A stretch of 64,000 nucleotides of DNA, taken from the NCBI RefSeq assembly GCF_000426485.1, contig NZ_AUFL01000017.1, positions 1 through 64,000 on the forward strand. Reading direction: 5' to 3'. Position numbers and translations under genes: made by a program. A model generated the notes under the pieces. That model was not told where the DNA came from and made no database searches. It saw only the letters and a list, made by a program, of their open reading frames with translations. The number at the start of each line of letters is the position of its first letter. Positions within the stretch are counted from its first letter, which is position 1. Below, piece after piece: positions 11,116-56,568 of the stretch. This stretch comes from Indolivaga capnocytophagoides DSM 22835. GTDB taxonomy: Bacteria > Bacteroidota > Bacteroidia > Bacteroidales > Dysgonomonadaceae.

Positions 11116-12354
11116 TTAAACAATAGCACTTTTTGATTCGTAAGTTTTTAGTTTTTCCACAATAGCATTCATTTCATTGGCTATCTTGTTATTAGTTATC
11201 CGGGCATATATTTGTGTTGTCTGGATTTTTGTGTGCCCCAGCATTTTCGATACAGACTCGATCGGAATACCCAACGATAAAAACGTCGTTGCGAATGTAT
11301 GACGGCTCATGTGATAGGTGAGGTGCTTCTCAATACCGCACAAATCGGCAATTTCTTTCAAATAAGAGTTCATCTTCTGATTGCACATTGTCGGAAGAAC
11401 TTTGTTGTTCTTTTGTTCCCCTCTGTATTTCTCTATTATAGAAAGTGGTATATCCATTAAAGGAACGGTTATATCGGTATTCGTTTTAACACGCTTCTTC
11501 ATAATCCATAGATTATCATCAAAATGAGGCTTTATATCGTCATACGTTAATTCGTATATGTCTGCATATGAAAGTCCGGTGAAACAGGAAAATATAAATA
11601 TATCCCTTACCTTTTCGATCCGGCCAATAGAGAAGTCTTTCTCAATAATCGCCTTTATCTCTTCTTCAGTCAGATATCCTCTGTCAACCTTCTCAAAATG
11701 GATTTTATAATTCGCGTAAGGGTCTGCGATGATCCAACCATTGTTCTTTGCTATATTGATAATCTTCTTCAGAAGCCTCATGTTGCGCCCGATTGTATTG
11801 GTCTGGCAATTCCCGTCAATTCTAAGATAAGTTTCAAAATCCGTTAAGAAACTGTGTTTAATATCTTTCAGTTTAATATCAGACAGATTATATTTGAATT
11901 TTAAGAATGTCTGAAGCTTTTTATAAACACATTTGTATTTTTGCAGGATAGCCGGAGAGAATTTTTTACCGACCAGTTTTTCCATATCTTCATTGTGCTG
12001 ACGATAGACTTCCAAAAGATAGATTGGTATGTCGTTAGGAGACGAGGAGATACCAAGAATACTGTTTTTCAAGCCTTCTGCAGAAACAATCCCATCACGA
12101 TCAAATATCTCATTGTATTTTTCATTGATAAGGCTGGTATAAGAATCTATGATCTTATTGATACTTAAAGCTTCTCTGCTTTTACCGATTGCTCTGCCTG
12201 TACTTGATTCCCAAATACCTGTATTTATTGCAGCTTTTATATTAAAACTGACCTTTTCCTGAGAGATGGTAATCCGACAAAAGATAGGTGCTGTTCCGTC
12301 CTTTTTAAGTTTGTCTCGACGGATGTAATAAATGACATTGAATGTACTTTTCAT
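11116..12354 (-). CDS. Tyrosine integrase, Bacteroides ICE type
   Basis: 412 residues: an arm-type DNA-binding domain (1-100), a SAM-like core-binding domain (about 105-215) and a catalytic domain (220-400). Active-site residues are K290, H348-x-x-R351, H374 (LGH) and Y383. The first catalytic Arg is replaced by Ser262 in TGLSYAD, the same substitution known for IntDOT of CTnDOT, which supports a Bacteroides ICE origin. It is the probable integrase of the 1-12.5 kb island, transcribed away from tRNA-Asp. RhuM and ORF6N genes follow closely. Apparently intact. Confidence 0.93.
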   Translation of the reverse strand: MKSTFNVIYYIRRDKLKKDGTAPIFCRITISQEKVSFNIKAAINTGIWESSTGRAIGKSREALSINKIIDSYTSLINEKYNEIFDRDGIVSAEGLKNSILGISSSPNDIPIYLLEVYRQHNEDMEKLVGKKFSPAILQKYKCVYKKLQTFLKFKYNLSDIKLKDIKHSFLTDFETYLRIDGNCQTNTIGRNMRLLKKIINIAKNNGWIIADPYANYKIHFEKVDRGYLTEEEIKAIIEKDFSIGRIEKVRDIFIFSCFTGLSYADIYELTYDDIKPHFDDNLWIMKKRVKTNTDITVPLMDIPLSIIEKYRGEQKNNKVLPTMCNQKMNSYLKEIADLCGIEKHLTYHMSRHTFATTFLSLGIPIESVSKMLGHTKIQTTQIYARITNNKIANEMNAIVEKLKTYESKSAIV

Positions 12355-12620: not shown

Positions 12621-12697
12621 TGGCGGTATGGACGGGACTCGAACCCGCGACCCCCTGCGTGACAGGCAGGTATTCTAACCAGCTGAACTACCACACC
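12621..12697 (-). tRNA. tRNA-Asp (anticodon GTC), CCA encoded
   Basis: 77 nt on the minus strand. The acceptor stem GGTGTGG pairs with CCATACC (one G-T), followed by discriminator G (as expected for Asp) and CCA. The anticodon loop is CTGTCAC with GTC; the T arm has GGTTCGAGTCC. It borders the integrase-containing island, but no duplicated tRNA 3' end was seen in the window. Confidence 0.95.
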
Positions 12698-49828: not shown

Positions 49829-52681
49829 TTATTTTTCAGTATTACTTTCTGAGCTATCATTGAATCGTTTCATATTCACCCTGCGATGTTTTACTCCTAT
49901 ATGAAACGTAGGTATTTCAAAAATCTTTCCTGCCTGAACAGTAAAACTTTGCTCGGGTTGTTCGCAAAAAGTATTCTGTTCGAGTGAATTCTGATCGAGA
50001 ACTATTTTATAATCACCCGTTGGTAAGAAAGCAAGAAAAGCACCGTCGTCATTCGTTACCGGTCTTTGGACAACCTCATTCTCGGCATTGATAATACGAA
50101 ATCTTATATTACTGTATTTCAGGATCATTTCGGCTGTTGTTTTTTTGTCGAAATCATAAATAATTTTTCCCGAAACAGTTCCGGTCTGCTGCAAAGGAAT
50201 CTGTATTTTGGTGTTGTATTTGGAAACAACCAAAGGCTGTCCTTTATAAAACCACCCTCTCCTTGATACCGGTTTTATCTCATATGCACCGAAAGGAACC
50301 TGCGAATAGACAAATTCTCCGTTCTCATCCGAAAGGAACGCAATATTATTGATAACAAAATCGAAGCCCGAAGCAGGTTCATCTCCCTTATCATATATGT
50401 TGTTTGCATTCTTATCATAGTACACAAACACCGATACTTTACTTTTCCGGCGGGTCGAGACATTCGATTCGGGTAAATGCACCGAAACACCCGCTTCTAT
50501 ATTATATATATTAGAGCTGAACTGGTTACTAAGACTATAATGATACAACGAAGAGTTTAAAAACAACGAATAAGTCCTTTTCGGATTGTATTTTACATTC
50601 ATAAATACCGAAGGAGATTTGCCCATTAGCGGATCTTTGCTGTATGTAGTACCACCGCTTACTTCGTATTTATTGTCCTTGAATGTTTTATAAATATTGG
50701 CAGAGAGAAACACACGGTTAAACTCCTTTTCCTTATCACTGTTCAGAGCATATTCCGAGATATAATAACTGCCTTTCTGATAAGAAGCTGTAACATTAAG
50801 CCATTTATAAGAATAAATAGCACTGGCCTTCATCTGAAAGTCATAACTGTCTTGCTGCGGATATTTCACCAAACCGTTTTCAAATATAGAGGTCAGTGTA
50901 TGTTTCAGATTCGGACTCAGCCATGTCAGACGTTCAACCAATCGGTTGGCAGACATATTCACAGTCGATTTAGCATCTATTGGGGCAAAATATAAGTAAT
51001 AAGAATTTGATCTCTCAAACTGATTTTGATAAGCGATACTTGCCGAAACGGATTTGAATGCAGGCAGACGAAGTTCTAATTCTCCGTTTACATTACGGTA
51101 AGTACTATTGATGGTGTTCAGAAAATATCTCGGAGAATAATCCGAATACATCAGATTTGACCTCAGGCTAAACCCTTTCCCCACCCCTTTTGTGACAGAC
51201 TGTTGGGCAGAAATAACACCTCTTCTTGTTCCCGGAAAATATGCCGAGCTATAATAATATGCTCCGCTTAACTCCAAATCACGGGTATGTCCGCTATATT
51301 GAAAATCAACAGCTCCTGAAGTTTTAAACTCGTCCAGCTTTCCGTAATTACCGGTAGCTCCGGAGACCTTCAAGCGCGTATACCATGTATTATTGATAAG
51401 CCAGCGCATCTCTGTTGCAATCACATTGTATTGAGCACCGTCAAAAGTATTGTCCTGATAAATATAAGATGCATAAAACTGCCGTTTTGCATTTACCGCT
51501 CCCAATTGTCCTGTCACAAAAAAGCTTCCGACTTGTTTAAATAATGGATCGGATGAAAAAAGATTGAACATTCCGTCAACAACCCCCACCTGAAGTCGTT
51601 TGCTCTGACCTTCATTAGAGAGAACCATTTTTGCACCTCTCCCGAATAACGACAGGTCAAGCGATTCACTTATATTACCAACAGTCAATTCATTTCTGTT
51701 CAATCGATAAGTCAATGCTGTATTTGTGGCAATTACCTGATTTCCCTGCGATAAGTTACTATACATATTCCCTTGCAGGGACAAACTACCTGCCGGCAGA
51801 TTGAAATCGGTTTTTCCTTGCAGCTGGAATACGTCACTCGAATTGCCATACCTCCGATACGTAGCCGTAATGGTATTTTTCTGATTTGAGGAAAATGCTC
51901 CGAAATCATAAGACGCATCTTCAAACTTTCGTGAAGACAATACATTCTGGATCGTAACCGAGCCGTTTCCGAATATTTCTTTATCCCGCCCTCTCATTCC
52001 TACAACATTAACCACAAAGCGGTCTTTCTCCAATAACTTTTTGGATGTCATAAAATTGAATTCGAACACATGCTGTTCCATCGGAGCAATGGTTGCTTTT
52101 TTCTCTATAAAATTGATTTGTCCCGTAAGATCGGGAATACTAAAAACGAGTGTTACTTTCTGTGATTTGTTACCGCGATTGCCGACAATAGCTTTCACTC
52201 TGACCGAATCGTTCGGATCAACCACCAGTATATTTGTATTACCGAGAACCAGATTCAACTGTATTTTTTCGTCCACAACAAAAGAAGAAACCTGTTCGGC
52301 TAAAACAGAACCGTCTTTATCACTCAAGCTGAACTTTATGGATGATGCTCCCGCCTCAACACCGCTGCGTATAATAAGTCTGACGGGAAGAAACAAACTA
52401 TCGGAAGGATTTAATTCGATAGATTCCGAATTTCCGGCTATCGCTCTGAGTGATTCCGGAACTTCGAGATTTAACACGCCCGAAAAAGGTTTATTGGACG
52501 TATTCTTAAATTTAACAACTGTACTGAAAACTCCTTGCCGGGAAGCCGGCTGCAGTTTTTTCTGGACAACCATTGCTACTCCTTCTTTATTTTCCTGCGA
52601 AAAAACAGAAAAAGAAGTCATAAACAAAATTAGCAACAGTAAATATTTACTCCAGCATTTATAAGTCATTCTATATATCAT
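49829..52681 (-). CDS. Usher-like outer-membrane assembly protein, 950 aa
   Basis: 950 residues with a signal peptide (ending FSVFSQ). Three parts are visible: N-terminal tandem Ig-like periplasmic domains (about 30-265), a beta-barrel of about 440 residues made of alternating aromatic strands (about 275-715, for example TALTYRLNRNELTVGN and FYASYIYQDN), and a C-terminal pair of Ig/SdrD-like domains (VFVYYDKNANNIYDKGDEPASG, then GTVSGKIIYDF). Plug-like and C-terminal domains flanking a barrel, and a position after pilin, chaperone and adhesin genes, suggest an usher. No close match to classical FimD motifs is visible, so the usher role is inferred from context and architecture. Confidence 0.65.
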   Translation of the reverse strand: MIYRMTYKCWSKYLLLLILFMTSFSVFSQENKEGVAMVVQKKLQPASRQGVFSTVVKFKNTSNKPFSGVLNLEVPESLRAIAGNSESIELNPSDSLFLPVRLIIRSGVEAGASSIKFSLSDKDGSVLAEQVSSFVVDEKIQLNLVLGNTNILVVDPNDSVRVKAIVGNRGNKSQKVTLVFSIPDLTGQINFIEKKATIAPMEQHVFEFNFMTSKKLLEKDRFVVNVVGMRGRDKEIFGNGSVTIQNVLSSRKFEDASYDFGAFSSNQKNTITATYRRYGNSSDVFQLQGKTDFNLPAGSLSLQGNMYSNLSQGNQVIATNTALTYRLNRNELTVGNISESLDLSLFGRGAKMVLSNEGQSKRLQVGVVDGMFNLFSSDPLFKQVGSFFVTGQLGAVNAKRQFYASYIYQDNTFDGAQYNVIATEMRWLINNTWYTRLKVSGATGNYGKLDEFKTSGAVDFQYSGHTRDLELSGAYYYSSAYFPGTRRGVISAQQSVTKGVGKGFSLRSNLMYSDYSPRYFLNTINSTYRNVNGELELRLPAFKSVSASIAYQNQFERSNSYYLYFAPIDAKSTVNMSANRLVERLTWLSPNLKHTLTSIFENGLVKYPQQDSYDFQMKASAIYSYKWLNVTASYQKGSYYISEYALNSDKEKEFNRVFLSANIYKTFKDNKYEVSGGTTYSKDPLMGKSPSVFMNVKYNPKRTYSLFLNSSLYHYSLSNQFSSNIYNIEAGVSVHLPESNVSTRRKSKVSVFVYYDKNANNIYDKGDEPASGFDFVINNIAFLSDENGEFVYSQVPFGAYEIKPVSRRGWFYKGQPLVVSKYNTKIQIPLQQTGTVSGKIIYDFDKKTTAEMILKYSNIRFRIINAENEVVQRPVTNDDGAFLAFLPTGDYKIVLDQNSLEQNTFCEQPEQSFTVQAGKIFEIPTFHIGVKHRRVNMKRFNDSSESNTEK

Positions 52682-52727
52682 ATCTGCTATGCTCTCTGCA
52701 TAGAATAAAGATGTGAGTATCTCTAAT

Positions 52728-52819
52728 TAAGCAACAGAAGGTATTTAATAATGCTTTTAAAAGCGATAACAATCTGATGCATTTATACTTGCAAGTCAAC
52801 AAAAGATCTGAGACCTTAA
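52728..52819 (-). repeat. 92-bp GGTCTCAGACC intergenic element, copy D
   Basis: On the minus strand it starts TTAAGGTCTCAGATC, has GCAAGTATAAATG and TTGTTAT, a GCTTTTAAAAGC palindrome, and ends AAATACCTTCTGTTGCTTA. It lies between the adhesin stop and the usher start. Confidence 0.75.
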
Positions 52820-52845
52820 TAACAATAAAGGAATCTACGCCGCCC

Positions 52846-53886
52846 TTACTTCGGAGTTATTTCATACAACAGAGTTGTACTGTATTCTGCCATAACCGCT
52901 TCTATCAGCTGATTATCGGCAGGCGATGTCCAGTATTGGATATCGTAATAACTCTGTGCATTTTTGGTTGAAGGTCCGTCCGCTATAATCTGCGATGTAT
53001 TCGAAAGTTCAATTGTACTGACCGAGGCCGAATTAGATCCAACTGGCACTAAATGCATCTTCACTACATTCAGAGGTAAAGTACTCCCTTTATCCGATAC
53101 AAACTGAGGAGATACCGACCGTAGTGATATCTGGTAAGGTACATTCGTAATCACATTCAACCCGCTCGAATATACAACCTTTACTCCGCTTGCATAATCA
53201 GCAAGAGATTTCATTTCCAGAAAACCTTTCTGAGCTTCGCTCGATATACGGATCGAATAGGTATTCTCTTCGATAGGGCTATCCGTCAACTTAAATACAT
53301 CTATCTGATAGGTTTGCTGATACGATCCTATAAGCTCATTATTACTGCCGTATGCCCTGAATGTAAGAGCAAGCCAGTATGTCTTTTGATTGTATCCGCC
53401 TTGCAGATCTTTCAGATAAGCACCGGGCAGTACCTGAATGTTGTAATGCAATTGAAGGTCGTAATACGAATTGTATGCCGAAACATTATATAACGGGGCA
53501 TTGGAACGGGGAACCAAATACACCTCGCTGCTCCCGTTAAGAGGGACAATAGAAGGCATACCTATCTCCGAAATAGTAGGAATAGCCTTAGGCTGTGCTT
53601 GCCCTACCGTGTTGATCGGAATAAATGCAATCTTATCCGATGGAAATTCGGCTGTACCATCGGTTGATTTAATCGGAGTCTGTACGCTTACCGACAGTTT
53701 CCAGTTCGAAATATTCAAGTTTGTGCCACTATAGGTAAATCTTGTAACCATCGCATCTGAAGCAGTATATCCCTGATACGAATTGACGCTCATATAATTA
53801 GAGCTCCATGTCGAGAAAGATAATTGCGCCTTGATGGATTGAAGGCAGGTACAAACTATTACCGATATAAAAAAAAGTTTATTCAT
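52846..53886 (-). CDS. Two-domain tip-adhesin-like secreted protein
   Basis: 346 residues from the Met at 53886 with a signal peptide (MNKLFFISVIVCTCLQSIKAQ). The N-terminal half (25-200) is a unique beta domain. The C-terminal half resembles the neighbouring pilin: DYASGVKVVYSSGLNVITNVPYQISLRS here against DYANGVSVDQADHLTVYSTGGFQVKVKA there, and both close with a YYDIQYW or YLDYYQN segment and a hydrophobic last strand. A variable domain plus a pilin domain is the FimH-type adhesin layout. The start overlaps the chaperone stop by 8 bp. Confidence 0.65.
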   Translation of the reverse strand: MNKLFFISVIVCTCLQSIKAQLSFSTWSSNYMSVNSYQGYTASDAMVTRFTYSGTNLNISNWKLSVSVQTPIKSTDGTAEFPSDKIAFIPINTVGQAQPKAIPTISEIGMPSIVPLNGSSEVYLVPRSNAPLYNVSAYNSYYDLQLHYNIQVLPGAYLKDLQGGYNQKTYWLALTFRAYGSNNELIGSYQQTYQIDVFKLTDSPIEENTYSIRISSEAQKGFLEMKSLADYASGVKVVYSSGLNVITNVPYQISLRSVSPQFVSDKGSTLPLNVVKMHLVPVGSNSASVSTIELSNTSQIIADGPSTKNAQSYYDIQYWTSPADNQLIEAVMAEYSTTLLYEITPK

Positions 53887-54676
53887 ATACAAAGTCTAAT
53901 TCAGCAGCTTCAATATTGTTCTCATCTCCATAATCGATAAGTACGGTTGCAGTATAGTTCCCTTTCTCTAATTTATCAGGCATTTTTATATATACCTTCC
54001 GATGATCCATCGGCATAGAATAAAAGATCATATTCTCCAGATGAATTTCTTTGCCCAGACTTTTATTGAACAGGTCGATAGAAATATCCCCATCAGTCCA
54101 TACGTTTCCCTCATTATTGAATACCAGAAGTATACGATTGTCGCTTTTCTCAAAAGACAGGATCTGTACATCAATTTTTCGTTCGCGGGGAGTTGTTGTC
54201 CTATGAAACAACTTTATTCCGGATCTCACGCTGACTTTAATATTCGCCCCATCTTTATCAACATCATCCACAGGGTTCATCTGCGTTACGTAAAGCATCG
54301 CTGTATGCACCGGCACATCAGATGTTAATCCGGCCGGAGCTGTTATACTAATATCTATAGCCTTGCTTTCGCCGGGCTTTAAAGACAAATATGAATTTCC
54401 GTTCAAGTTAACCCAACTCGCACACGAGTTAGCCAGAGTATCAGCCTGATAAATCATATTTTCACCAAGATCATTATATTGCCAGTCGGCAAGAGTAACA
54501 GCCAGCTCCAATACAGTTTTGGCACTAACATTAGTCACTACAACCTGCTCCGTTTGCGTTTGTCCCGGATCAGCTTCAAAATAAAGTCTCGGAGGAGATA
54601 CAGATATACCGGTTTGAGCATATCCGGCAATAGCCAATATCAACAACCCAACTGTTAAAACAATCTTGTTTTTCAT
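53879..54676 (-). CDS. PapD-like periplasmic pilus chaperone
   Basis: 265 residues from the Met at 54676 (a longer frame from 54718 adds a non-signal leader). A signal peptide ends at AIAGYAQ. The mature start SVSPPRLYFEADPGQTQTEQVVVTN is the first strand of a chaperone Ig domain. LTVTLADWQYN-like strands, KLFHRTTTPRERKI and a second Ig-like domain (LVFNNEGNVWTDGDISIDLFN) follow. Size and two-domain Ig layout match alternative chaperone-usher chaperones. It lies between pilin and adhesin genes and should stabilise both subunits in the periplasm. Confidence 0.75.
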   Translation of the reverse strand: MKNKIVLTVGLLILAIAGYAQTGISVSPPRLYFEADPGQTQTEQVVVTNVSAKTVLELAVTLADWQYNDLGENMIYQADTLANSCASWVNLNGNSYLSLKPGESKAIDISITAPAGLTSDVPVHTAMLYVTQMNPVDDVDKDGANIKVSVRSGIKLFHRTTTPRERKIDVQILSFEKSDNRILLVFNNEGNVWTDGDISIDLFNKSLGKEIHLENMIFYSMPMDHRKVYIKMPDKLEKGNYTATVLIDYGDENNIEAAELDFVYE

Positions 54677-54782
54677 ACAATTTTTCTTATAAAACAAAGA
54701 AGAGTATATAGTGTTCACTATAAGACTCTTCTTTTTCAGGCACTAAAGCCTGTTTATATGATGCGCTGTTTTCTCGTTCTTA

Positions 54783-55331
54783 TTATTGAGCTACAATTGT
54801 ATAAGTTAATGTTGTAGTGAACACAGTAGGATTTTCTGTATTTTGGTAATAATCCAAATATGCATTGTTGTCTCCTTTTGCAGCATAGTTCACATTGATA
54901 GTTTTATCAACACCACCTTTTGAGCTCGATACGATCACTTTATCTTCAGCTGATAATTGAGCTGAGCTAAAAGATGCACTGTTAGACAAGGCCTGTGTTC
55001 CGTTAGAAGCAGTTAATGTAACATCGCTTACATTAATGTTGTTCGCTTTACCTGTAAGTTGAGATCCTGAAGCTTTTACCTTCACCTGAAAACCACCGGT
55101 ACTATAAACTGTTAAGTGGTCAGCTTGATCTACGCTTACACCATTCGCATAGTCATTTTTTGTTGTATAATTCAAATCTACTGTAGTTTGTTTTGAGTTT
55201 ACAACCAAAGTTTGAATAGGATTTAATTTAATGTTCAAGGTTACATTTCCAGTACTTTGCGCATTAGCTACAGTTACTACACCAAACAAACTAACAACTG
55301 CCAATATGGCTGTTAAAAAATTGACTTTCAT
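54783..55331 (-). CDS. Major pilin-like subunit
   Basis: 182 residues with a signal peptide (ends VANAQ). The mature N-terminus GNVTLNIKLNPIQTLVV alternates hydrophobic residues like a donor strand, and the protein closes with TTTLTYTIVAQ, a typical final pilin strand. No Cys; Ser/Thr/Asn-rich beta fold resembling CFA/I or DUF4402-type fimbrial subunits. As first gene of the operon with a long leader (about 210 nt) and strong -7 box, it is probably made in the largest amount. A 106-bp gap, without a clear hairpin, separates it from the chaperone. Confidence 0.72.
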   Translation of the reverse strand: MKVNFLTAILAVVSLFGVVTVANAQSTGNVTLNIKLNPIQTLVVNSKQTTVDLNYTTKNDYANGVSVDQADHLTVYSTGGFQVKVKASGSQLTGKANNINVSDVTLTASNGTQALSNSASFSSAQLSAEDKVIVSSSKGGVDKTINVNYAAKGDNNAYLDYYQNTENPTVFTTTLTYTIVAQ

Positions 55332-55683
55332 TTACTTTTTTAATTTAATTTTTTTTACTTTTTACAACACTCTCTAAAAAAATCTCTCAAAAATATTACT
55401 TCAAATAATCATTTTTTATTTTCACAAACATCCAATAATCATAATCTAAAAAAATAATAAATCAAGAGTAAAACTGATTCCTAAAACTTTATATAACAAA
55501 TAATTGATTTCTTTTAAAAGCTTTATTCTGTTCTCATTTTGATGATGCAAAGATATATCGGTGATGACATCTTAGAGAGAAAAAAAAGGGAGAAAAAAAG
55601 GAAAAAAAGGGAAAGAATACATAAAAACGTCCGAATACATGTTATTGTAGTATAGAAATATGGAATTTTTAGTTAAAAAAGCT
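55332..55683. other. 352-bp AT-rich leader and promoter of the pilin gene
   Basis: No gene. It holds the pilin promoter at 55548-55555 and a long, A-rich untranslated leader, plus the end of the AraC gene region with a purine-rich tract (55580-55615). Confidence 0.6.
55548..55555 (-). promoter_or_regulatory. Pilin operon promoter -7 box
   Basis: TATCTTTG on the minus strand, exact consensus, about 215 bp upstream of the pilin ATG. No TTTG is seen at -33, which may mean activator dependence, for instance on the adjacent AraC regulator. Confidence 0.6.
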
Positions 55684-56568
55684 CTAATTTTTCTGATTTT
55701 TCAAAACTCCCCTTGTCACAGATAAAATATTTATCAACTGATATCTCACACAAAACTTATTCAATTCGGATAGAGAAACAAACCCGAACTCTTTCAAAAT
55801 ATCATCGATAGTAGCTCCTTTATAAAAGAAAAAGTTATTCAGATTATTGATTTTACGATCCATAATCCACTTATGAGGGGTTTCTCCAAATTCGTCTTTA
55901 AAGTATTTGGTAAACGTTTTGGGTATCATGAAACATTCTGAAGCCAGTTCTTTCACTGTTATCGAATTAGTATATTTCGACATAACCTCCAATCTGAATT
56001 CACTGACATCGACTATAGCCGGCTTAATAAAACGAATAAGTTCTTCCTGAGGATAAAGCTTTCGGCTGATGAATAACAGTTCCTGACGTTTTAAAGCAAA
56101 TAATACATTCGATTTTAGATCATTATTTTTGAGGAAAACAATACTCGCTAAGAAAAACCTCAACATTTTCTCAATATCCAAAGCCCCGATCTCATCTCCA
56201 GACTCACTTTTATATTTTTTCACTTTCTGTATTGTCTGCTTATCGATGTAAGGAAGTAACGAATCTGTTTTGAGAATAATATAAACAGCTGTATGCAAAA
56301 CATCTCCATGATATGGGGTATGATTACAGGACATACAATACATACGGTTACCCATGAGCAACATAGAAGAACCATCAGATTTCTTTATCTCGATCCTTCC
56401 TCTTAGCAAAAAAATTATCACATTTTCATCAACATTTCCTATCGTGATATGGTTTCCTATATCTTCATGAAATACAGAAAACGAGTCATCGACCTCGGTT
56501 AATTGAGATACCACTTCCCCATCTGCCGGATTAGGGACTTCATTCGCTTTTAAATGATCTTTGTTCAT
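55684..56568 (-). CDS. AraC-family transcriptional regulator
   Basis: 294 residues. The N-terminal cupin-like sensor (about 30-150) is followed by an AraC HTH pair (about 205-285): SITVKELASECFMIPKTFTKYFKDEFGETPHKWIMDRKINNLNNFFF, then TIDDILKEFGFVSLSELNKF. It lies directly upstream of the pilin operon on the same strand with 350 bp between, the usual place for a fimbrial regulator in Bacteroidales. The second HTH is poorly conserved. It is a candidate activator of the pilin promoter, which lacks a -33 box. Confidence 0.88.
   Translation of the reverse strand: MNKDHLKANEVPNPADGEVVSQLTEVDDSFSVFHEDIGNHITIGNVDENVIIFLLRGRIEIKKSDGSSMLLMGNRMYCMSCNHTPYHGDVLHTAVYIILKTDSLLPYIDKQTIQKVKKYKSESGDEIGALDIEKMLRFFLASIVFLKNNDLKSNVLFALKRQELLFISRKLYPQEELIRFIKPAIVDVSEFRLEVMSKYTNSITVKELASECFMIPKTFTKYFKDEFGETPHKWIMDRKINNLNNFFFYKGATIDDILKEFGFVSLSELNKFCVRYQLINILSVTRGVLKNQKN

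Follow-up and report, generated by a model that had tools for sequence, protein, structure and literature searches.

A candidate chaperone-usher pilus operon of a distinct branch in Bacteroidota

Bacteroidota fimbriae are described as type V pili, and no chaperone or usher is described for Porphyromonas gingivalis, in the excerpted text of one account (PMC5789003). In the chaperone-usher (CU) pathway, the ushers FimD and PapC consist of an N-terminal domain, a 24-stranded barrel, a plug and two C-terminal domains, according to an excerpt of another (PMC11001860). Archaic CU pilins such as CupE1 insert an N-terminal donor strand into the next subunit; archaic pili are placed in proteobacteria, in cyanobacteria and in phyla such as Deinococcota, and a word search of that source finds no 'bacteroid' (PMC10104325). 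A survey, again in partial text, omits the chaperone–usher pathway (PMC4793230). Among the matches listed in the open literature (5.39 million papers), at the level of titles and beginnings of abstracts and with most subscription papers and preprints falling outside, no CU system of the kind described below is reported in Bacteroidota; two papers use both 'chaperone-usher' and 'Bacteroidota'. Here we analyse such a candidate in a window of 64,000 nucleotides, the whole stretch examined, from the 4.38 Mb draft genome of Indolivaga capnocytophagoides DSM 22835 (contig NZ_AUFL01000017.1, positions 1 to 64,000).

The window carries an operon that very probably builds an adhesive pilus through the CU pathway of a distinct Bacteroidota branch. 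Five open reading frames (ORFs), encoding an AraC-type regulator, a pilin, a chaperone, an adhesin and a large barrel, all occupy the minus strand between 56568 and 49829; the four consecutive genes and the upstream regulator are thus arranged as in the original prediction. Its CU reading, made from the letters alone, is supported by the anchor residues and G1 strand of the chaperone, the donor-strand pattern of the pilin, the homology between adhesin and pilin, and ushers as the best fold match of the barrel. By sequence, we establish that the chaperone is homologous to PapD and the C-terminal domain of the adhesin to pilins, along with the strand and anchor patterns and the gene order. The features of the four structural genes are as follows.

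54783..55331, minus strand: major pilin, 182 residues, secreted, without cysteine (alignment of 24 pilins; domain homology to the C-terminal domain of the adhesin).
55215..55244, minus strand: predicted donor strand of the pilin, residues 30-39, VTLNIKLNPI (hydrophobic alternation; preceding, or at the margin of, the domain in common with the adhesin).
53879..54676, minus strand: PapD-like periplasmic chaperone, 265 residues from ATG (hhalign against E. coli chaperones).
54587..54589, minus strand: predicted anchor Arg of the chaperone, residue 44, PPRLYF (invariant; aligned with the FimC Arg).
54209..54241, minus strand: predicted G1 donor strand and anchor Lys of the chaperone, residues 160-170, ORF numbering from 54718 (alternation; Lys169 aligned with FimC).
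52846..53886, minus strand: two-domain adhesin, presumed tip subunit (AlphaFold2 (AF2) model, mean pLDDT 91.8; alignment of 31).
53293..53820, minus strand: N-terminal beta-rich domain of the adhesin, residues 25-200, presumed receptor-binding (strands of the AF2 model).
52849..53265, minus strand: C-terminal pilin domain of the adhesin, residues 210-348 (profile match to pilins).
49829..52681, minus strand: usher-like outer-membrane barrel, 950 residues (AF2 model, mean pLDDT 81.1; best eight PDB fold matches FimD/PapC).
51944..52579, minus strand: N-terminal region of the usher-like protein with two predicted immunoglobulin (Ig)-like domains, residues 35-246 (DSSP strand pattern on the model; weak Pfam matches).
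50414..51874, minus strand: predicted beta-barrel, residues 270-756, about 26 strands by manual count (DSSP; it ends before or with the strand 745-756).
51635..51643, minus strand: Gly-Arg-Gly (GRG), residues 347-349, in predicted strand 6 (aligned with FRG of FimD; invariant in the 31-sequence usher alignment).
49892..50362, minus strand: two predicted C-terminal prealbumin-like domains, residues 774-930 (weak SpaA and CarboxypepD_reg matches; strands of the model).

With classical and alternative CU pili (type 1 Fim, P, CFA/I) the locus shares a PapD-like chaperone with anchor Arg and Lys and the G1 pattern, a pilin with an N-terminal strand, an adhesin made of an N-terminal domain and a strandless pilin domain, a large barrel with two C-terminal domains, and linked genes as in the K-12 fim locus. 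Unlike in those systems, no plug is found in its barrel, which has about 26 predicted strands instead of 24 and two N-terminal Ig-like domains; its proteins fall below all Pfam cut-offs, its mature pilin and adhesin have no cysteine, and its genes run pilin-chaperone-adhesin-usher. Archaic pili (Csu, CupE) resemble it in their small gene sets; that the system makes a thin fibre like theirs would be a guess. PF05229 (SCPU), which we take to be the archaic pilin family, is not among the 14 families listed for the 24 aligned pilins. Type V pili (FimA/Mfa1) are fibres of the same bacterial order and are assembled by strand exchange, as is proposed here. Their precursors are processed by signal peptidase II and by proteolysis, and neither a chaperone nor an usher is described for P. 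gingivalis (PMC5789003), whereas the window has a gene of each kind and shows no standard lipobox.

The homology of the chaperone to PapD is found in profile comparisons. The profile of all 19 sequences (the window's and those of 18 close relatives) aligns with nine chaperones of Escherichia coli K-12 at an hhalign probability of 92.7% and an E of 4.3e-7, which holds for this comparison alone, with 215 columns spread over both domains, and scores 53.0 where the best of 100 column shuffles reaches 27.0. A profile of 29 sequences gives 97.2% and a score of 79.4, with shuffles at 22.8 or below, and one of 39 sequences with relatives gives 97.8%. With signal peptides removed, the chaperone match stands at 62.4%, scoring 37.6 against at most 31.2 in 100 shuffles. 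Arg44 (PPRLYF) is aligned with the Arg of TRVIY in FimC and Lys169 (SGIKLF) with the Lys of RIKLY; we take these to be the PapD residues that hold the C-terminus of the subunit. Both are invariant in the 19 aligned sequences and kept in 22 of 22 close members. The G1 strand alternates, with hydrophobic residues at positions 160, 162 and 164 in 57 of 57 cells and at 161 and 163 in 0 of 38. The PapD-like chaperone of two Ig domains named in the original prediction thus stands, and the G1 donor strand, whose absence would have spoken against it, is present at the sequence level. Among Pfam families, PapD_N weakly matches 4 of the 19 chaperones (best E 0.0012); other Ig-like domains weakly match more of them, for example Motile_Sperm with 10, and four NCBIfam fimbrial chaperone models each weakly match 2-4 members. 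Profile searches of the PDB gave no match for the chaperone or the adhesin alignment, and for those of usher and pilin only matches at E 0.2 to 1; a tblastn search of plasmids with the usher gave none.

For the pilins, we aligned 24 of the 33 pilin-profile matches shorter than 300 residues, excluding fragments, duplicates and short or diverged copies. Right after the leader they keep an N-terminal strand of the VTLNVKL type, with hydrophobic residues in 95 of the 96 cells that make up positions 30, 32, 34 and 36; at the level of pattern, this bears out the donor-strand-like N-terminus predicted earlier. At the other end, positions -8, -6 and -4 are hydrophobic in all 24 pilins, as in all 31 aligned adhesins (the window's and 30 others, drawn from 32 including the window's, with that of locus L029 left out), while position -7 is mostly polar in the pilins and hydrophobic in only three.

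FimH-like tip adhesins combine an N-terminal domain with a pilin domain that has no donor strand. Compared profile against profile, pilin residues 38-182 align with adhesin residues 210-348, starting at Pro38, with a probability of 98.9% (E 1.1e-17); the window adhesin is therefore an N-terminal domain followed by a pilin domain without its N-terminal strand. Thus, the two domains of the adhesin in the original prediction are retained, and the second is corrected to a pilin domain; a non-pilin identity for it is ruled out by the same match. The AF2 model of the adhesin (pTM 0.61), one of two modelled proteins with the usher, has a CfaB–CfaB pilin fusion as its best PDB fold match (E 2.1e-6). 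Listed alongside are integrins, collagen and fibrinogen adhesins and others, most of them sandwiches, so that for this model the fold search is supportive and not specific.

Searching a collection of species genomes with the window chaperone, and keeping close relatives only, we obtained 18 loci (L002-L019), hosted by Dysgonomonas, Proteiniphilum, Fermentimonas, one Bacteroidales, Myroides, Paenimyroides, Mesonia, Arenibacter, Sinomicrobium, Chryseobacterium and Niabella. The nearest titled relative is Dysgonomonas macrotermitis, whose chaperone is 73% identical to that of the window; its type strain DSM 27370, a termite-gut isolate, has the operon at L002. The order pilin(s)-chaperone-adhesin-usher on one strand is found in 17 of them, and in the eighteenth (L017) the contig has no sequence before the chaperone. 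The ORFs have not come together by chance: homologues of all four genes recur in the same order and strand in these 17 loci. Chaperone and barrel are linked in all 18. Two pilin genes occur at some loci; the contig of L007 ends within the pilin, and in L018 the barrel is split across two frames.

Within the window's own family the barrel is present in 24 of 101 genomes, and in two of six listed as its genus; the system is therefore held patchily. Of 395 genomes sampled from the whole phylum, 26 have members of the chaperone family; of 393 sampled from the order, 58 do, 57 of these being distant (E 1.2e-4 to 4e-33) and one the window's own genome. Among 20 distant loci of the order, 14 have a barrel matching the usher profile in the fetched stretch and 13 a pilin; six show no barrel within it. 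In the phylum draw, a barrel of 918-971 residues matches that profile in seven of seven distant loci of the same class (L077-L082, L088). Two of these carry repeated pilin genes beside the distant version of the system: five in L088 (8687-15817, minus strand), of which four look near-identical at both ends, and four in L080 (8303-11530, minus strand), of which three do, the ends alone being compared. Gene amplification or variation is a possible explanation of these repeats.

The AF2 model of the barrel protein shows two Ig-like domains, some 26 barrel strands and two C-terminal domains, as delimited above by DSSP. We searched it with Foldseek against the PDB library (350,542 chains): FimD and PapC take the first eight places (E 2.1e-14 to 1.5e-10), and ushers make up 14 of the 50 matches listed. 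In Pfam, the N-terminal region weakly matches FixG_C (55-136) and ASH (157-228), while SpaA and CarboxypepD_reg occur at E <=0.1 in 31 of 31 and 27 of 31 family members, respectively. As to the Ig/SdrD-like ends of the original prediction, SdrD/SpaA-like and Ig-like matches exist, all of them below the Pfam cut-off in the window protein.

The usher alignment comprises the window sequence and 30 others, from 33 distinct full-length frames including the window's, without L018, because of its split frame, and L029. From it we took every third row (11) and added 10 frames of distant loci from the phylum draw. Against E. coli ushers, this 21-sequence profile places GRG on the FRG of FimD and reaches 16.1%, with a score of 40.6 against at most 24.4 in 60 column shuffles. 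Adding 11 of the 14 order-level barrels makes a 32-row profile, from which L107, L108 and L113 were left out as cut by contig or stretch ends, while L102 and L103 were kept though cut. Compared with eight E. coli ushers, it reaches 40.0% over 312 collinear columns in another part of the protein, with a score of 46.5 (60 block shuffles go no higher than 35.8, and reversed profiles score 23.4-25.3). Together, the model and these profiles suggest that the barrel has an usher fold. The ushers of L097, L098, L100, L101, L102 and L111 are longer than that of the window, at about 1,170-1,200 residues, with about 210-240 extra after the barrel.

In FimD, the plug follows FRG directly. GRG is invariant in the 31-sequence alignment and not in every distant barrel. 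In all 32 aligned barrels, the stretch after this strand, strand 6, has 4-15 residues, and no plug-sized insertion occurs elsewhere in them, with 81-93 residues before and 371-411 after.

More distant families of the phylum carry a link to E. coli ushers. Pfam Usher is above cut-off in none of the 395 sampled phylum genomes; it matches below cut-off in four genomes of a single family, f25 (E 1.9e-5 to 7.4e-4). In all four loci the matching frame, of 994-1505 residues, adjoins a chaperone of the window's family, and ten outlying chaperones align with that family at 99.5%. Five f25 barrels (those four and L085) match E. coli ushers at 94.1% (E 1.2e-7), scoring 75.0 against 24.9 for the reversed profile; the barrel of L086, another fetched locus, is not part of the analysis. 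The alignment runs from before the barrel through the plug region, within what we take to be its limits in FimD. Against the C-terminal domains of the window family, the same five reach 97.7% (E 2.2e-12); the barrel is not covered in this alignment, so the match could partly reflect a common domain type. In hmmsearch, the usher profile of the window family misses the f25 barrels.

A second outlying family, f19, accounts for all 23 of the 395 phylum genomes with PapD_N above cut-off. Four such loci were fetched, and in three of them (L132-L134) the chaperone profiles of Bacteroidota and of E. coli both match the gene; in L084 and L135 the ORF filter kept no chaperone frame despite a match there. 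The f19 barrels (871-919 residues; L083, L084, L132-L135) lie beside PapD-like chaperones, and hmmsearch at E <=1 matches them with neither usher profile; by hhalign they reach 9.1% with E. coli ushers and 89.6% with the window family, in the C-terminal domains only. From the evidence of both families and the data on the window barrel, the latter is therefore likely an usher that lost its plug or never had one. The original prediction had made its reading depend on a plug or an usher topology; no plug is found in any of the 32 aligned barrels, whereas the best fold matches are ushers, and barrels with a plug-like region stand beside the same type of chaperone.

The operon as a whole would work as follows. 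Subunits would cross the inner membrane by Sec. The PapD-like chaperone would then anchor the C-terminal carboxylate of each subunit with Arg44 and Lys169, and lend its G1 strand to the open groove of the subunit. The barrel, acting as usher, would receive the chaperone-adhesin complex first and chaperone-pilin complexes after it. There, the N-terminal strand of an incoming pilin, of the VTLNVKL type, would displace the chaperone strand in the preceding subunit. The fibre would leave through the barrel with the two-domain adhesin at its tip, and the barrel would be gated without a plug, by other means. Fibre formation, strand exchange and gating are what we infer from the components.

Several observations weigh against the CU reading. 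The window chaperone and usher proteins are below the cut-off of every chaperone or usher model in Pfam and NCBIfam, and Pfam Usher (PF00577) and PapD_N (PF00345) have no match above cut-off in the window's own genome; the control with E. coli is positive. Seven distant chaperones of the same class all lack the Lys, and three of them the Arg, which the other four keep. In the adhesins, the C-terminal alternation is looser than in the pilins, with position -7 hydrophobic in 17 of 31; of the 50 fold matches listed for the adhesin, 11 are chaperone-usher proteins, and some of these are chaperones. The barrel model has a pTM of 0.56, its top eight matches superpose poorly (TM-scores 0.21-0.34, root-mean-square deviation 15.7-20 Å), and ranks 9-12 are multi-domain Ig-rich proteins without barrels. 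The 31-sequence alignment matches E. coli ushers at 3.9% by hhalign, and the seven distant barrels alone at 2.3%; the values of 16.1% and 40.0% are marginal and come from different parts of the protein. No plug domain is found in any of the 32 aligned barrels, and the N-terminal region, with its look of two Ig-like domains, is presumably unlike the N-terminal domain fold of ushers.

The strongest rival concerns the barrel. A PapD-like chaperone might serve surface fibre or matrix proteins that leave through another exporter, the barrel being a plain pore that is usher-like only as a large barrel with C-terminal sandwiches. The missing plug, the poor superposition on FimD and the want of direct profile similarity between E. 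coli ushers and either the 31-sequence alignment or the seven distant barrels would fit such a pore, as would LptD and BtuB among the next fold matches (E 6e-8 to 1.4e-6). We nevertheless hold this improbable: the eight best matches in the PDB library are ushers, the remote usher alignments outscore their controls, and elsewhere in the phylum, in a different family, members of this chaperone family sit next to barrels whose similarity to E. coli ushers extends across the plug region.

A variant of the type V (FimA/Mfa) system, with lipoprotein subunits and strand exchange triggered by proteases, would be the usual fimbria of the order Bacteroidales. Type V fimbrillins are encoded elsewhere in the genome: P_gingi_FimA (PF06321) has five matches over cut-off (C5:79349-79690, C6:15959-17644, C9:29030-30793; L092-L095), and two fibre systems may therefore coexist. 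The contrast with type V drawn in the original prediction was fair, with the addition that both occur in this one genome. For the operon itself a type V origin is very unlikely. No standard lipobox is seen by eye in any of the four leaders, as predicted, and no fimbrillin family, PF06321 included, is among those listed for the pilins; the window pilin has no cysteine, the conserved strand is N-terminal and adjoins the leader, and chaperone and barrel stay linked at every close locus.

The last rival, a Gram-negative cousin of the WxL cell-wall system (a WxL-interacting protein with WxL domains, and no pilus), draws on weak similarity of the chaperones to the WxLIP domain (window E 0.011; eight of 19 members at E <=0.1) and is hardly credible, given that the PapD similarity spans both domains and the anchor residues and that we know of no place for an outer-membrane barrel in that system. 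The type V and WxL readings are both set aside on this evidence. A distant chaperone in L080 (7430-8224) comes close to WxLIP, at E 4.4e-6 and 27.2 bits for a cut-off of 27.3; its sequence hints at a possible shared origin with WxLIP of Gram-positives, and descent of the Ig-like domain from one ancestor may account for the similarity.

As to gene starts, the ATG at 54676, which gives 265 residues, is the most probable one for the chaperone, rather than the GTG at 54718; its 18 relatives are 263-281 residues long. For the adhesin the most probable start is the ATG at 53886; the gene then overlaps the stop codon of the chaperone by eight bases and encodes a secreted protein of about 346 residues. 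Its leader has two cysteines (VIVCTC) outside a lipobox context and, like the leaders of its relatives, terminates in an AQ-type site; the window's mature pilin and adhesin contain no cysteine. Two further features may concern regulation.

55684..56568, minus strand: AraC-type regulator (HTH_18), on the strand of the pilin and upstream of it (PF12833, 35.5 bits against a cut-off of 33.6).
54696..54752, minus strand: two predicted RNA stem-loops in the pilin-chaperone gap, a possible attenuator (z -4.64).

Of the 18 relatives, 10 have an AraC-type gene upstream of their pilin, on the same strand in eight and on the opposite strand in two. A stem-loop is predicted in the pilin-chaperone gap of all 10 relatives folded, out of 17 in which this gap is present, with z from -2.18 to -5.50. 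The weakest are those of L002 and L006, for which 3 and 6 of 200 shuffles fold equally well. Such a stem-loop might raise pilin over chaperone output in the manner of an attenuator.

Elsewhere in the window, with genes named by eye, a tRNA-Asp (12621-12697) stands beside a tyrosine-recombinase-like gene (11116-12354), with a second recombinase-like gene at 1147-2157; the segment 1147-12697 looks like an element integrated at the tRNA. Near the pilus operon, the segment 26267-46187 holds a SusC/SusD-like pair, galactanase-like and other glycosidase-like genes and a hybrid two-component sensor, and is, by these names, a polysaccharide utilisation locus.

We further propose that Bacteroidota own an unrecognised class of CU pili, next to the classical, alternative and archaic classes, in which the window's branch is plugless and has a larger barrel gated otherwise, perhaps by the N-terminal Ig-like domains, while the outlying barrels with a plug region link it to FimD; on this wider proposal we regard the case as evenly balanced. 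Since the window proteins fall below the Pfam and NCBIfam cut-offs, automatic annotation may miss them. A CU branch in many members of the phylum, if true, would change the picture of type V fimbriae there and add a second type of fibre. A plugless usher, if true, would mean that gating and strand exchange are arranged otherwise than in FimD and PapC, and the outlying barrels would serve as natural intermediates for comparison.

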